Made by a program: the position numbers and the translations under genes. A stretch of DNA of 50,495 bases from a virus: positions 1 through 50,495 of the IMG/VR virus record IMGVR_UViG_3300046780_000167. The stretch is one strand, 5' to 3'. Under the pieces are notes generated by a model, which had not been told where the DNA came from, searched no databases, and was given only the letters and a program-made list of their open reading frames with translations. Positions 6,867 to 12,018 of this stretch are shown here, one piece after another. The stretch's first letter is position 1; each line of letters starts with the position of its first letter.

Positions 6867-6964
6867 TGTTCTGGTTCCTGATAGCAGTCCTCGGACTGAT
6901 GTGCGCGTGGCTCGGTTACGAGCTGAGTCCCGCGATTGACTTCTGGTGCGGGAGGGCTCGATGA
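6866..6964 (+). CDS. Very small single-pass membrane protein, 32 aa
   Basis: ATG 6866 overlaps the nuclease stop (TGATG) and the stop overlaps the next ATG (ATGA). The product is one hydrophobic helix (FWFLIAVLGLMCAWLGYEL) followed by a short polar tail. Stop/start coupling on both sides supports a real gene despite its size. The role is unknown; an inner-membrane phage micropeptide is the likely class. Confidence 0.5.
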   Translation: MFWFLIAVLGLMCAWLGYELSPAIDFWCGRAR

Positions 6965-7260
6965 AGGCGCCCTTCAAGATTTACAACGTCGACGAAGACT
7001 TCGACGACACACCCGAGCTGCAGGTGGCGACCGTCTGGAAGGTGACCGACCAGTATTGGTGGATTCGCTGCAAGGATGGCTGGCTCGCATTTCAGTGCCG
7101 CTCGCGTGTCGGTATTGGCGAATACGAGACCGACCCACACCGCGCCTGGGCGACCTATGTCGAGGCACGACGCGCCGCTGTAAAGAAGGCCCAGGCCATC
7201 CTCGACGCGACGGCAATCGCCTACGCGCGATGGAACACCAAGAAGAGGAACAGCAAGTGA
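6961..7260 (+). CDS. Hypothetical protein, 99 aa
   Basis: The start at ATG 6961 overlaps the upstream stop. The N-terminal half is rich in aromatic residues (QYWWIRCKDGWLAFQ), and the C-terminal half is a long basic helix. This may be a compact beta domain plus helix. No family is recognised. The GTG of the next gene overlaps the stop (GTGA). Confidence 0.65.
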   Translation: MKAPFKIYNVDEDFDDTPELQVATVWKVTDQYWWIRCKDGWLAFQCRSRVGIGEYETDPHRAWATYVEARRAAVKKAQAILDATAIAYARWNTKKRNSK

Positions 7261-7382
7261 CGCGCCTCGAAGCCTGGAGGTGCGTGCGGGCGATTGCCGA
7301 CTATCTCACCCGTCGTGATGAGAGCCCGCGCGCGGGTGCGGACCTCATCGAAGCCGTGAAGACACTGGAGAGAACCAAGTGA
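7257..7382 (+). CDS. Small hypothetical protein, 41 aa
   Basis: GTG 7257 overlaps the previous stop and follows AAGAGGAAC. An in-frame ATG at 7230 would add a Glu/Gln-rich extension. The product is a two-helix peptide with a conserved-looking RAIADYLTRRD segment. GTGA overlaps on both sides place it in the coupled run of small genes from 6866 to 8513. Confidence 0.5.
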   Translation: MTRLEAWRCVRAIADYLTRRDESPRAGADLIEAVKTLERTK

Positions 7383-8316: not shown

Positions 8317-8513
8317 GCACGCAGACATCCTGCGACCGCTGCCATCGCACGTCGACGCCTGAACAGCCGCTGGCGTTCAAGCAGTTCCCTTGTAACGATG
8401 TCTCGGTGGTCGTCTACCTTGCGATGGGCGAATGCGAGAAGGACATTTGCGTTTACTGTTGGCAGGCTGCAGTGCTGGCGCTCAAGGCGTGGTGGAAGAA
8501 GGGGGCAAAGTGA
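8313..8513 (+). CDS. Small Cys-rich putative zinc-finger protein, 66 aa
   Basis: GTG 8313 overlaps the previous stop (GTGA). Cysteines occur as CDRC near the N-terminus and CEKDICVYC in the second half, a spacing that could bind one zinc ion. The C-terminus is a basic Trp-containing helix. The function is unknown. The stop overlaps the start of the XPF-like nuclease gene. Confidence 0.6.
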   Translation: MSTQTSCDRCHRTSTPEQPLAFKQFPCNDVSVVVYLAMGECEKDICVYCWQAAVLALKAWWKKGAK

Positions 8514-9256
8514 TTCTCGTCGACAAACGCGCCGGTTCGGAGGAACTCATCGTCGGGCTCGAAGCGCGCGGCCTGACTGTGGAGGCGACCACCCTCGACT
8601 TCGGGGACGTCGCCTTCACGGGGCGCGGCGAGGGTAAGAAGACCCTCGACATCGGCATCGAGTTCAAGAAGGTCGGGGAGTTGATTCAGTCGATACGCGA
8701 CGGGCGTTTCGCTGGTCACCAGCTCCCTGGCCTGACGGGCGAGCGCAAGATGTATGACCATGCGTGGCTGCTCGTCGAGTGGGGCAAGGAAGAGGTGCGC
8801 GGCGGCAACATCTGTTTCTACCAGCGGCGCGGCTGGCGCGTGCTCATGCCCCTGTCGGAATATCAGAAGCATCTGCTGACCTACGAACTGCTCGGAGGCA
8901 TTCATGTTCAATCCACAAGTAACCGCCGCGCTACTCTCGCTTGGCTTGTGTCTCTCTATCGGTGGTGGACTGACCGTCCTCTTGATGGGCATACGTCACA
9001 TCTGGCGGTCCATCAGCCTGCGGTCTTCGGGGAACTCAGCCCCTTCCGCAAAGCCGTCACGTCCTGGCCCGGTATCGGGCGCAAGCTCTCGAAATCCGTG
9101 GAGGGGGCGTTTCAACGGAATGGAAAACCCTCACTTCGTGCCGCCGTTACAGCCCCGGCAACAGCCTGGGCAGGGGTCACGACGCGGGACGACAAGGGCA
9201 CCGAAAGGCGGCTAGGGCTCTCCGCAGCGGAGAAGCTCGTGGAGTTCTTTAATTGA
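8510..9256 (+). CDS. XPF/ERCC4-type nuclease with C-terminal helix-hairpin-helix, 248 aa
   Basis: GTG 8510 overlaps the upstream stop. The ERCC4 nuclease signature is present: Asp5 in LVDKRAG, Gly-Asp at 32-33 (DFGDVAF), then EFKK at 51-54 and SIRDGR at 61-66. The usual Glu-Arg-Lys is Glu-Phe-Lys here, a substitution worth noting. Near residue 185 the sequence SWPGIGRKLSKSVEGAF fits a helix-hairpin-helix DNA-binding motif. Such proteins cut branched or flapped DNA. Codon use is GC3-rich up to about 8890 and then drops sharply where another ATG-started frame begins at 8904. The stop overlaps the polymerase start as TTGA. Confidence 0.8.
   Translation: MILVDKRAGSEELIVGLEARGLTVEATTLDFGDVAFTGRGEGKKTLDIGIEFKKVGELIQSIRDGRFAGHQLPGLTGERKMYDHAWLLVEWGKEEVRGGNICFYQRRGWRVLMPLSEYQKHLLTYELLGGIHVQSTSNRRATLAWLVSLYRWWTDRPLDGHTSHLAVHQPAVFGELSPFRKAVTSWPGIGRKLSKSVEGAFQRNGKPSLRAAVTAPATAWAGVTTRDDKGTERRLGLSAAEKLVEFFN
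8904..9215 (+). CDS. Possible embedded +1-frame gene: membrane protein, 103 aa
   Basis: This frame lies entirely inside the XPF-like nuclease gene. ATG 8904 has GGAGG at 8894-8898, five bases upstream. The product would have one hydrophobic segment (TAALLSLGLCLSIGGGLTVL) and a long basic Pro/Gly-rich tail. In the first 40 nuclease codons from this ATG only 18 end in G or C by hand count, far below the surrounding sequence. Those third positions are second positions of the embedded frame, where T gives hydrophobic residues. Dual coding would explain this, but a low-GC3 patch also makes any +1 frame look more protein-like, so the call is tentative. Confidence 0.35.
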   Translation: MFNPQVTAALLSLGLCLSIGGGLTVLLMGIRHIWRSISLRSSGNSAPSAKPSRPGPVSGASSRNPWRGRFNGMENPHFVPPLQPRQQPGQGSRRGTTRAPKGG

Positions 9257-12018
9257 AAACTCTCCCGTCGAACTTCATCCCAGGCGAGGGGCATATCGGC
9301 AACGGCATCTTCGTCGTTGGCAATACGCCCCACTGGCAGGACGCGCGCGAGCGTCGAGCGTTCGCAGGCAGAGGCGGCGCCGAGCTGGACCGCTTGATTG
9401 CCGACACGCCAGGGCTCCCGAAACGCGCGTGGCTCTACCTGACCTACTACATCAAGAAGTATCTCGACGATGCGGCGGGCAAGCACGTCTCCGAGGAGGA
9501 CCGCAAGGAAAGCGAGCCGTTCCTCCTGGAGGAGTTGGAGCGCGGACGTCCGCACCTCATCATCACGCTCGGCACTGACCCGATGCAGTTCTTCCTCGGG
9601 CGCGGCGAGAGCATGGAGGTGCGCCAGGGCATTCCCTGGATACACCCCGACGACATCGTCAAGACGAAGCGCGGCGCGAAGACCATCCGCACGTTCACAA
9701 AGGACGCGCGCGTCGTCTTCCCGATTTACAACCCGATGGTCAGTTTCAAGAACGCCGACCTGAGCCCGCAGGTCATCTACGCGTTTCAGGAGCTGGCCCA
9801 GTTTCTTGCGGGGAAACGTCCCGCGAGAATGATGTATCACGACGAGTATCCCGACCCCGTCTATGAGGAGATTACTGATGTCGAAAGGCTCAAGGAAATA
9901 CTTCGTCAAAGCACAGTCGGCACCCGAGACGCCATCAATATCGCCATTGACACCGAAGGCTTCCCCGGCAAACCCTGGTCCCTTCAGTTTTCGTTTGAGC
10001 CGGGAACAGGCTATCTCATTCGGACAACATCTACAGCGTGTCTCCGCTGCCTCCGTGACTATTTCCGTAGTGTGCGACCCCGCCTCACATTCCATTCGGC
10101 GCTTCACGATTTATCCGTGGGGCGAGAACTCGGAGTCTTTGACGCTGAAAGTGCGCTAGACTTCGACGACACGATGGTCATGGCGTGGCTGCTGCAGCTC
10201 GAACAGCAAGGGCTGAAGCCCCTGTGCGTCCGTCATCACGGCATGCGAATGCAATCATTCGATGAGGTGATGGGGGACGCGCAGGAACGGTTGATGAACG
10301 ACTACCTGACGTGGATTTGGGATGCAGAGGAGTTCGACTATGAGGAACGACAACAAGCAGCATTCGCTGCTATCAATGCTACACCCTTGGTGGACAAGCA
10401 GTCAGGTCGCCCCAAGCACGACAAACAAGGTCGTGTCCGGTATCGTCGGACCACGAAGCCTCCGAACGTCCCCAAGACGCCGCTCCACAAAGCAGTTGTT
10501 CGTTGCCTTGGAAGCAAGAACGCGACAAAGCTCTGGAGCGACCAAGTCGAAGACATACAGGTTGCGGGCTACCATCGCATGGGTGAACCCCCGCAGGCGA
10601 CACTTGACTATATCCCTCGCGCCGCTGCCGTTCGCTACGGCTGCAGAGATAGCGATGGGACAACTCGCGTTCGTCATACACTCCGACCCCGAGTCCATGA
10701 CATGGGACTCGATGAGGTCTATGCACTTGAACTCTCGACCATCCCGCTCATCGACCGCATGTCGCAAGTCGGCATCAAGCCGGACCTCGACCATTTTGCC
10801 TACGTCAGCGAAGGGCTCGGCTACGAAATCGAGTCGCTGAAGTGGGAGCTGGAACGCGAGACGGGCATCACCGGCTTCAATGCGAACAGCGGCGACCAAG
10901 TCGAGGCGTTTCTCGCGCCGTTCGGCGTCATGGAAGGGATGCGCCGCACCAGCTCTGGCCGTTTCTCGACGAACGACAAAATCCTTGAGGCGCTCGAACA
11001 TGAACATCCTGAGCTACCTGTCCTGTCGAAGATTCGTGAATATCGAGAAACATATAAGCTCAAGAACACGTTTGTGGATAGGCTTCCTGATTTCGTTCAT
11101 CGCTGGCCTGACGATGGGCGCGTCCACGCCACCTTCCGCACGACCAGGGTGGTTACTGGTCGTCTTGCGGCTAGCGAGCCTAACATACTTGCTCAACCTG
11201 AGCACGGCAAGTTCGCTGCCGACTTCAAACGCGGATGGGTGCCGGACGACGGACATGTCCTTGCCGCATGGGATGAAAGCCAAATTGAGCTACGAGGACT
11301 CGCACATCTTAGCCAAGACCCTGTCATGCTGGCGGTCTTTCGTGGCGAGAAGCGGAACAAAGACGGTAGCATCATCGACCTGCACGCCGCTCTGGCAGAG
11401 AGAATCTTCGGGGTCAAGCCACATCTCCAGGACAAGCACAAACACCGATTCCCCGCTAAAGCCGTGAACTTCGGCATCCCGATGGGGATGACCTGCAAAG
11501 GGCTCGCAGTCGAGCTGAGAAAGAATGGAGTCTATGTCACAGAAGAAGACGCGCAGCGGTGGCTCGACGAAACGCTCGGCCTCTACAAGGGGGTTGCTCG
11601 ATACATGGATACTCGCATCGCTGAAGCTCGACTTCAGGGTTATGTCCGATGCCTCTCGGGACGCGTCCGTTACATCGGAGGTATTCGAAGCTCTGACGAA
11701 CGCACTCGCGCAGAGGCAGAGCGTTTTGCATTCTCTACGCCGATACAGGAGTCCGCGCAGTTCATTATGAAACAGGCCGAGGCCCAGGTGTGGACGATGC
11801 TCAAGGGCTGGTGGCGCGAAGGGCTCTACGTGGAGCCGTTGTATCAGCAGCACGATGCCCTCAAGTTCGAGGTCCAGGAGGGCCAGGAGCAACGATTGCA
11901 CCGGGAGGTGACCAGGGCGATGACCCAGGTGCCGAAGGGCTTCACGGTGCCCCTGGAGGTCGAGGGGGAGTGGGGCTACAACATGGCGGATATGACGAAG
12001 TTCAAGGAGGCAGCATGA
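9253..12018 (+). CDS. DNA polymerase: UDG-like domain + 3'-5' exonuclease + family A polymerase, 921 aa
   Basis: TTG 9253 overlaps the nuclease stop. Residues 1-195 resemble a family-4 uracil-DNA glycosylase fold: FIPGEGHIGNGIFVVGN, a FAGRGGAELDRL loop, LIITLGTDP, and a late FPIYNPMVSF. The exonuclease follows, with Asp233-x-Glu235 (AIDTEG), HSALHD, and YGCRD as the third motif. The family A palm and fingers come next. Motif A is WDESQIELRG (Asp674). Motif B is RFPAKAVNFGIPMG (Arg732, Lys736, Phe740) with Met where Tyr is usual. Motif C is QQHDAL (His867-Asp868) with Ala in place of the usual Glu. UDG-like domains fused to family A polymerases are known from SPO1-type phages. This is the replicative polymerase. 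Codon use alternates between GC3-rich and GC3-poor blocks. Confidence 0.9.
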   Translation: MKTLPSNFIPGEGHIGNGIFVVGNTPHWQDARERRAFAGRGGAELDRLIADTPGLPKRAWLYLTYYIKKYLDDAAGKHVSEEDRKESEPFLLEELERGRPHLIITLGTDPMQFFLGRGESMEVRQGIPWIHPDDIVKTKRGAKTIRTFTKDARVVFPIYNPMVSFKNADLSPQVIYAFQELAQFLAGKRPARMMYHDEYPDPVYEEITDVERLKEILRQSTVGTRDAINIAIDTEGFPGKPWSLQFSFEPGTGYLIRTTSTACLRCLRDYFRSVRPRLTFHSALHDLSVGRELGVFDAESALDFDDTMVMAWLLQLEQQGLKPLCVRHHGMRMQSFDEVMGDAQERLMNDYLTWIWDAEEFDYEERQQAAFAAINATPLVDKQSGRPKHDKQGRVRYRRTTKPPNVPKTPLHKAVVRCLGSKNATKLWSDQVEDIQVAGYHRMGEPPQATLDYIPRAAAVRYGCRDSDGTTRVRHTLRPRVHDMGLDEVYALELSTIPLIDRMSQVGIKPDLDHFAYVSEGLGYEIESLKWELERETGITGFNANSGDQVEAFLAPFGVMEGMRRTSSGRFSTNDKILEALEHEHPELPVLSKIREYRETYKLKNTFVDRLPDFVHRWPDDGRVHATFRTTRVVTGRLAASEPNILAQPEHGKFAADFKRGWVPDDGHVLAAWDESQIELRGLAHLSQDPVMLAVFRGEKRNKDGSIIDLHAALAERIFGVKPHLQDKHKHRFPAKAVNFGIPMGMTCKGLAVELRKNGVYVTEEDAQRWLDETLGLYKGVARYMDTRIAEARLQGYVRCLSGRVRYIGGIRSSDERTRAEAERFAFSTPIQESAQFIMKQAEAQVWTMLKGWWREGLYVEPLYQQHDALKFEVQEGQEQRLHREVTRAMTQVPKGFTVPLEVEGEWGYNMADMTKFKEAA
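9878..10159 (+). CDS. Possible embedded +1-frame gene inside the polymerase, 93 aa
   Basis: ATG 9878 follows GAGGAG (9865-9870) by seven bases. The product begins MSKGSRKYFVKAQSAP and is a basic, strand-rich peptide with one Cys. By hand count 51 of 94 polymerase codons within its span end in G or C, against 41 of 54 just before and 48 of 60 just after. The drop begins at the ATG and ends at the stop. It encodes no recognisable family. Either it is a real overlapping gene or this part of the exonuclease domain has a different codon history. Confidence 0.35.
   Translation: MSKGSRKYFVKAQSAPETPSISPLTPKASPANPGPFSFRLSREQAISFGQHLQRVSAASVTISVVCDPASHSIRRFTIYPWGENSESLTLKVR
10340..10840 (+). CDS. Possible embedded +1-frame gene inside the polymerase, 166 aa
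   Basis: ATG 10340 has GAGGAG at 10327-10332, seven bases upstream. The first 120 codons coincide with a GC3-poor stretch of the polymerase (74 of 134 codons end in G or C by hand count). The last 35 codons lie over normal GC3-rich sequence and read as Ser/Thr/Arg-rich, as a shadow frame would. The 5' part is thus a better candidate than the 3' part. No homology is recognised. Confidence 0.25.
   Translation: MRNDNKQHSLLSMLHPWWTSSQVAPSTTNKVVSGIVGPRSLRTSPRRRSTKQLFVALEARTRQSSGATKSKTYRLRATIAWVNPRRRHLTISLAPLPFATAAEIAMGQLAFVIHSDPESMTWDSMRSMHLNSRPSRSSTACRKSASSRTSTILPTSAKGSATKSSR
11000..11467 (+). CDS. Possible embedded +1-frame gene inside the polymerase: membrane protein, 155 aa
   Basis: ATG 11000 has a GAGG nine bases upstream. 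The product would contain two hydrophobic segments, LWIGFLISFIAGLTMGA and WLLVVLRLASLTYLLNL, then a polar Ser/Thr-rich tail. The polymerase GC3 falls from 31 of 39 codons before this ATG to 17 of 40 after it (hand count). It covers the DNA encoding the region just before motif A through to motif B. A membrane protein encoded within a polymerase gene would be unusual. The caveat about +1 shadows in low-GC3 sequence applies in full. Confidence 0.3.
   Translation: MNILSYLSCRRFVNIEKHISSRTRLWIGFLISFIAGLTMGASTPPSARPGWLLVVLRLASLTYLLNLSTASSLPTSNADGCRTTDMSLPHGMKAKLSYEDSHILAKTLSCWRSFVARSGTKTVASSTCTPLWQRESSGSSHISRTSTNTDSPLKP
11525..11770 (+). CDS. Possible embedded +1-frame gene inside the polymerase, 81 aa
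   Basis: The frame starts at ATG 11525, with a second ATG at 11534, and ends where the polymerase returns to GC3-rich codons. The ribosome binding site is weak (GAGAAAG). The product is basic with a helical middle (VTSEVFEALTNALAQRQ). It is the least supported of the embedded set. Confidence 0.2.
   Translation: MESMSQKKTRSGGSTKRSASTRGLLDTWILASLKLDFRVMSDASRDASVTSEVFEALTNALAQRQSVLHSLRRYRSPRSSL

Follow-up and report, generated by a model that had tools for sequence, protein, structure and literature searches.

Is the messenger RNA (mRNA) of a phage DNA polymerase read in two frames? The question is raised by the viral record IMGVR_UViG_3300046780_000167, which was analysed over its full 50,495 bases (hereafter the window; from a virus collection, GC content 62%). 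A first-pass annotation of the window had pointed to five open reading frames (ORFs) in the +1 frame of the nuclease and polymerase genes, all with an ATG start, and all five are indeed there and open to their listed ends. It had also placed Shine-Dalgarno (SD) sequences before three of the starts. We found GGAGG 5 nucleotides (nt) before 8904 and AGGAG 7 nt before both 9878 and 10340; of the remaining two frames, that at 11000 follows a weaker GAGG at 9 nt and that at 11525 has none. We consider it likely that, in the clade to which this polymerase belongs, the polymerase mRNA is read twice and carries nested, overprinted genes, namely ORF A, ORF B and probably ORF C, expressed through internal initiation. 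On the sequences compared, we are confident for A and B, and fairly so for C, that ribosomes read the +1 frame. Together, ORFs A to C span about 45% of the polymerase gene, overlapping the polymerase frame by 282, 501 and 468 nt, respectively.

9253 to 12018, plus strand: DNA polymerase, the outer (host) gene of ORFs A to C; Pfam DNA_pol_A (1.9e-76) and UDG (4e-10), PDB Klenow fragment (9.8e-54)
9866 to 9870, plus strand: SD sequence of ORF A, AGGAG, 7 nt before the ATG
9878 to 10159, plus strand: ORF A, 93 amino acids, +1 overlapping gene candidate over the presumed exonuclease motif I/II region
10328 to 10332, plus strand: SD sequence of ORF B, AGGAG, 7 nt before the ATG
10340 to 10840, plus strand: ORF B, 166 amino acids, +1 overlapping gene candidate; first half in a polymerase insertion absent from the distant polymerases L048 and L049
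10987 to 10990, plus strand: SD sequence of ORF C, weak GAGG, 9 nt before the ATG
11000 to 11467, plus strand: ORF C, 155 amino acids, probable +1 overlapping gene; hydrophobic stretch at about residues 25 to 43; support from the 5' two-thirds

Stop codons are depleted in the +1 frame of related polymerases

Seven relatives of the UDG plus PolA polymerase (L047, L173, L043, L052, L044, L045 and L046; 47 to 56% amino acid identity) were recovered from viral contigs with an alignment-based search and with the degenerate motifs NFGIPMG and FAF[SA]TPIQ. Five more distant polymerases (L048, L049, L056, L060 and L063) served as an outgroup. The terminase relatives contained no recognisable polymerase copy, and the divergence of bacterial PolA matches from genome contigs and from the phage collection was too great for frame comparison. 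Synonymous sites were essentially saturated with respect to the window and nearly saturated among the close relatives, except within L044 to L046; each relative thus tests the +1 frame almost independently. As the decisive null, we permuted synonymous codons inside 60-codon blocks in seven polymerases (the window, L047, L173, L043, L052, L044 and L046). This procedure keeps the protein, the GC content at third codon positions (GC3) and the local codon usage, and alters codon order alone, which is of consequence only where a second frame is in use. The zones examined correspond to the ORFs that had been picked from the window in the first-pass annotation, with exact edges drawn after the family profile was seen.

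We observed 5 stops in the +1 frame of zone A against 11.4 expected (p=0.005), 3 against 15.7 in zone B (p<0.001) and 6 against 15.4 in positions 10927 to 11250 of zone C (p<0.001). The depletion stayed when the window was omitted (p=0.007 for A, <0.002 for B and 0.0017 for C). Stops were not depleted in the 3' third of ORF C (11251 to 11464; p=0.17), they were at or near expectation under permutation before A and after C, and between A and B (10126 to 10335) they were in excess (31 against 25.6 expected). No depletion was detected in the +2 frame, in the five distant polymerases, in the nuclease or in the zone of the 11525 frame. Codon resampling gave a gene-wide count of 146 against 180.7 expected (standard deviation 10; p<0.001), and p=0.0003 for the depletion after family-wise correction. 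In A and B, the +1 frame is open beyond what the host protein and codon usage account for, and in C this holds for 10927 to 11250. Low GC3 and mosaic recombination had both been raised as possible causes in the first-pass annotation; they are excluded as the source of the stop depletion, since the null holds local codon composition exactly. The same annotation had named stops or lost ATGs in relatives as grounds for abandoning the frames. Judged in this way, the 9878 and 10340 frames stand, with recurrence of openness and of a start with its SD sequence, whereas the 11525 and 8904 frames fall. In the 11000 frame, stops are depleted over the initial two-thirds, but conservation of the start is weak.

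From the window alone, the +1 frames barely exceed chance, and gene-wide and local-GC3 synonymous nulls singled out none of them as significant. With the host protein fixed and codons resampled at local GC3, the probability of being open was 0.06 to 0.39 for individual frames (0.29 for 11525), and a window-only 60-codon permutation was significant solely for the 11000 frame (p=0.015). ORFs of at least 80 amino acids that begin with an SD sequence and ATG numbered 5 in the +1 frame of the window's 26 genes against 1.5 expected (p=0.01), and 3 of these were polymerase ORFs (0.64 expected). No such ORF occurred in the +2 frame of the same 26 genes. It could be argued that host-protein composition and low GC3 simply leave +1 frames open and that the pattern was recognised post hoc, given that A, B and 11525 do not reach significance when the window is tested by itself and that the 8904 and 11525 frames behave like chance. 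We find this extremely unlikely, since the zones came from ORFs of the window and were tested on relatives without it, and since the family-wise p value was 0.0003. The weight of the significance comes from the relatives and not from the window alone.

Start codons and ribosome-binding sites recur inside the polymerase gene

A and B each have a start and a ribosome-binding site of their own that recur across relatives. At the aligned start of ORF A (window 9838 to 9877), ATG or GTG with an SD sequence was found in 7/7 relatives (null 2.5, p<0.0025), and at that of ORF B (window 10333 to 10354) in 6/7 (null 1.6, p<0.0025). These are the two strongest clusters of SD sequence plus start in the whole aligned polymerase gene. 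The start of ORF C is weakly conserved, being present with an SD sequence in four of the seven relatives when GTG is allowed (p=0.025), or in 3/6 with a single member of the close pair L044/L045 included (p=0.12). In L044 to L046, ORF C may begin directly behind ORF B. The polymerase segments that contain the starts of A and B are absent from the distant L048 and L049, consistent with a clade-specific origin. The length of the ORFs among relatives ranges from 50 to 109 amino acids for A and from 106 to 240 for B.

SD-like signals can also promote frameshifting, as in prfB, and the motifs observed here lie inside a coding region, upstream of open +1 frames. Programmed +1 frameshifting, in which these sites would promote slippage and yield truncated polymerase fusions, is nevertheless hardly credible to us. 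A start codon accompanies the SD sequence at a spacing of 4 to 10 nt in 7/7 and 6/7 relatives, which slippage does not need, and no common slippery sequence was noticed by eye, no systematic search having been made.

Similarity in the +1 frame and properties of the predicted products

Similarity in the +1 frame was in excess gene-wide (family-wise p<0.001), with a peak in zone B (z=5.3). At columns where the host residue varies, the excess was also detected (family-wise p=0.014), with a peak in zone A (z=3.6); pair by pair, +1 identity at such columns gave inconsistent results. In the closest pair, L044/L045, third-position divergence was relatively low in zone B alone (p=0.001). A synonymous-conservation scan based on gene-average codon usage gave only a weak signal (10654 to 10792), because codon usage shifts along the polymerase gene.

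An alternative is that the internal starts are used but the hidden ORFs are regulatory, for example leader-like or coupling elements that control the flow of ribosomes along the polymerase mRNA, with selection on start and openness and not on the peptide. Indeed, starts and openness are more clearly conserved than peptide composition, and A and C look no more protein-like than a shadow of the host frame. However, the zones extend over 90 to 160 codons, which is longer than a regulatory ORF needs, and the excess of +1 similarity in B (z=5.3 against 2.7 in the +2 frame) and at host-variable columns in A also speaks against it; we therefore regard a purely regulatory role as improbable.

Several observations nonetheless weigh against nested protein-coding genes. 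The excess of similarity in zone B is partly seen in the +2 frame as well (z=2.7; family-wise p=0.003 to 0.03), and some of it is thus plain synonymous constraint. The OLGenie-style dNN/dNS for L044/L045 in B was 0.72, with a 5 to 95% range of 0.49 to 1.12, and +1 identity between the window and L047 in A was not higher at columns with differing host residues. Comparison of translated composition with the frame shadow gave a Stouffer value of 2.2 for B and negative values for A and C. No Pfam or PHROGs profile matched the products of A, B and C (for C, of the window copy only), and the AlphaFold predicted local distance difference test (pLDDT) score was 57 for ORF A and 43 for the L052 copy of ORF B. 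ORF A has just 50 amino acids in L044, ORF B requires a GTG start in L043, and it is far longer in L044 to L046. Finally, the polymerases come from uncultured phages, and we infer synthesis of the A to C proteins from sequence.

The low-confidence model of the ORF A product suggests a basic tail with a helix and a beta-hairpin after it, and the ORF C product may be membrane-bound in this phage. A tblastn search with ORF A in phage records returned chance-level matches only. The L052 copy of ORF B had a protein-like look, of which AlphaFold gave no confirmation. In the L047 polymerase (reverse strand), a 26-residue insertion lies at the equivalent of window 11254; its +1 translation, LARIRQLMDDAIQQHHDYLVREYYRIEPFP, looks more protein-like than the polymerase frame at this place and is plausibly an amphipathic segment.

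Codon composition and tracts shared with a relative

The low-GC3 blocks described in the first-pass annotation are real, with a GC3 of about 0.8 to 0.95 outside and 0.43 to 0.65 inside. As it had cautioned, the 10340 frame overruns its block, which ends at about 10740, the frame itself ending at 10840. GC content at second codon positions climbs to about 0.6 in several of these blocks. The GC3 dips partly match the ORFs, and over B and C they are common to the relatives. Several relatives lack a dip under ORF A, and those whose GC3 is high there still keep the A start. Comparable dips were absent from high-GC3 bacterial PolA genes, used as a control, and the dips are thus not a general property of PolA. 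We conclude that the GC3 dip is a side effect at most and an unreliable marker of +1 genes. As a separate observation, the distant polymerases L048 and L049, whose GC3 is otherwise high, display a strong GC3 dip, down to 0.30, at the equivalent of window 11008 to 11340, together with long +1 frames in which stops are not depleted.

Two tracts identical to L047 were found inside ORF A, both amid saturated divergence. One is listed below; the second has 22 nt and begins at about 10087. They may represent short recombination tracts or DNA-level constraint, and they do not account for the avoidance of stops.

9994 to 10018, plus strand: tract of about 25 nt identical to L047, inside ORF A; start accurate to a codon

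Mosaic recombination would explain the hidden frames as a by-product of codon usage in blocks acquired from low-GC3 relatives. Consistent with this, the best synonymous match differs by block (L047 for A, L043 for B and, weakly, L052 for C), and with tracts of 25 and 22 nt identical to L047, micro-recombination may well also occur. As the origin of the +1 frames it is very unlikely, since the stop depletion is frame-specific, survives exact local codon composition and is seen without the window; moreover, divergence from L047 at first and second host codon positions in zone A is not below that from other relatives.

The remaining +1 frames and the surrounding locus

The two frames that drew no support from relatives lie upstream of ORF A, in the nuclease gene, and downstream of ORF C.

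8510 to 9256, plus strand: nuclease gene, Pfam ERCC4 (1.4e-8); GTG start at 8510 likely; served as control, without +1 signal at the level of the family
8904 to 9215, plus strand: +1 ORF, 103 amino acids, hydrophobic N-terminus; GGAGG at 8894 to 8898; no support as a conserved gene
11525 to 11770, plus strand: +1 ORF, 81 amino acids, without SD sequence; judged chance

Nuclease relatives carry +1 stops in the 8904 zone at the expected rate (22 against 21.6), and the joint test was negative; the window-only null expects 0.19 such ORFs. The 8904 frame could at most be a gene specific to this phage. In the 11525 zone, every relative has +1 stops (2 to 8 each; 20 in total against 19.0 expected), and we judge the openness of this frame to be chance.

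The polymerase belongs to family A, with a UDG-like domain at the N-terminus (residues 11 to 141) and a C-terminal PolA domain (residues 516 to 911) with motifs A (DESQIELR), B (NFG) and C. Motif C (window 11843 to 11870) reads QHDA, the usual form being HDE; relatives have HDD or HDC, and the second acidic residue is thus variable across the clade. The TTG start of the polymerase overlaps the stop of the nuclease gene (TTGA, 9253 to 9256), and in L043, L047 and L052 the two genes are separated by about 310 to 460 nt. A second contig has an identical copy of the locus, with zero differences, and the +1 frames are therefore unlikely to be assembly errors. Elsewhere in the window, a low-GC3 (0.54) TTG frame at 6936 to 7382 holds a +1 ORF of 99 amino acids with an SD sequence and ATG at 6961; this ORF, and not the surrounding TTG frame, may be the true gene.

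Proposed expression and origin of the nested genes

If the polymerase mRNA is read twice, ribosomes would initiate inside it at sites with an SD sequence and ATG, in addition to translating the polymerase frame. ORF A (9878 to 10159), ORF B (10340 to 10840) and probably ORF C (from about 11000) would then be translated in the +1 frame, and their presumed products would act as small accessory proteins. ORFs A to C would have originated by overprinting, presumably within this clade. Because the start regions of A and B are absent from L048 and L049, a joint origin of the host insertions and the hidden frames is possible. One could go further and suppose that the clade assembled three new protein genes into a nested mini-operon, with insertions kept because they extended the hidden genes and with the polymerase reshaped thereby; we regard this extension as rather doubtful.

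Should the proteins be made, a replicative polymerase gene would be dual-coding over nearly half of its length, constraining the evolution of an essential enzyme, and two to three additional protein families without known relatives would be added. Ordinary annotation suppresses frames inside long genes, and nested genes in large double-stranded DNA (dsDNA) phages are thus probably undercounted. Codon-order permutation on a few saturated relatives can reveal such genes where the ratio of nonsynonymous to synonymous substitution (dN/dS) lacks power.

Comparison with known nested genes

The lambda Rz/Rz1 spanin genes and the phage T7 genes 4.1/4.2 are nested genes. As proposed for A and B, a small gene is wholly contained there within a larger phage gene, in a different frame, and has an internal start. 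Those genes are nested singly or in pairs within a lysis or primase gene, whereas the present frames, two to three in succession, occupy a replicative polymerase gene; furthermore, unlike the products of those genes, those of A to C match no family. The Rz/Rz1 spanins have been treated previously (PMC5295617), and both overprinting and gene nesting in phages are well documented (PMC8227390, PMC7017920, PMC8903798, PMC5295617). Searches of open-licence literature yielded no account of +1 genes inside a family-A polymerase of a phage, and the novelty is provisional. The split cyanophage polymerases encoded in different frames (PMC10976474) are a separate phenomenon.

Overprinted viral genes (PMC8227390, PMC7017920, PMC8903798) likewise show same-strand +1 overlap, with stop avoidance and synonymous constraint as the usual signatures. 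The +1 type is the commonest once overlaps of 1 and 4 nt are excluded (PMC8903798). The median +1 overlap in that survey measures 14 nt, compared to 282, 501 and 468 nt here, in one gene of a dsDNA phage contig of about 50 kb. The outer gene is a recognisable member of the phage PolA-type polymerases (PHROG 17, Pfam PF00476); it differs from the others, including distant homologues without the +1 signal, by its clade-specific insertions, with hidden +1 frames in or beside them.
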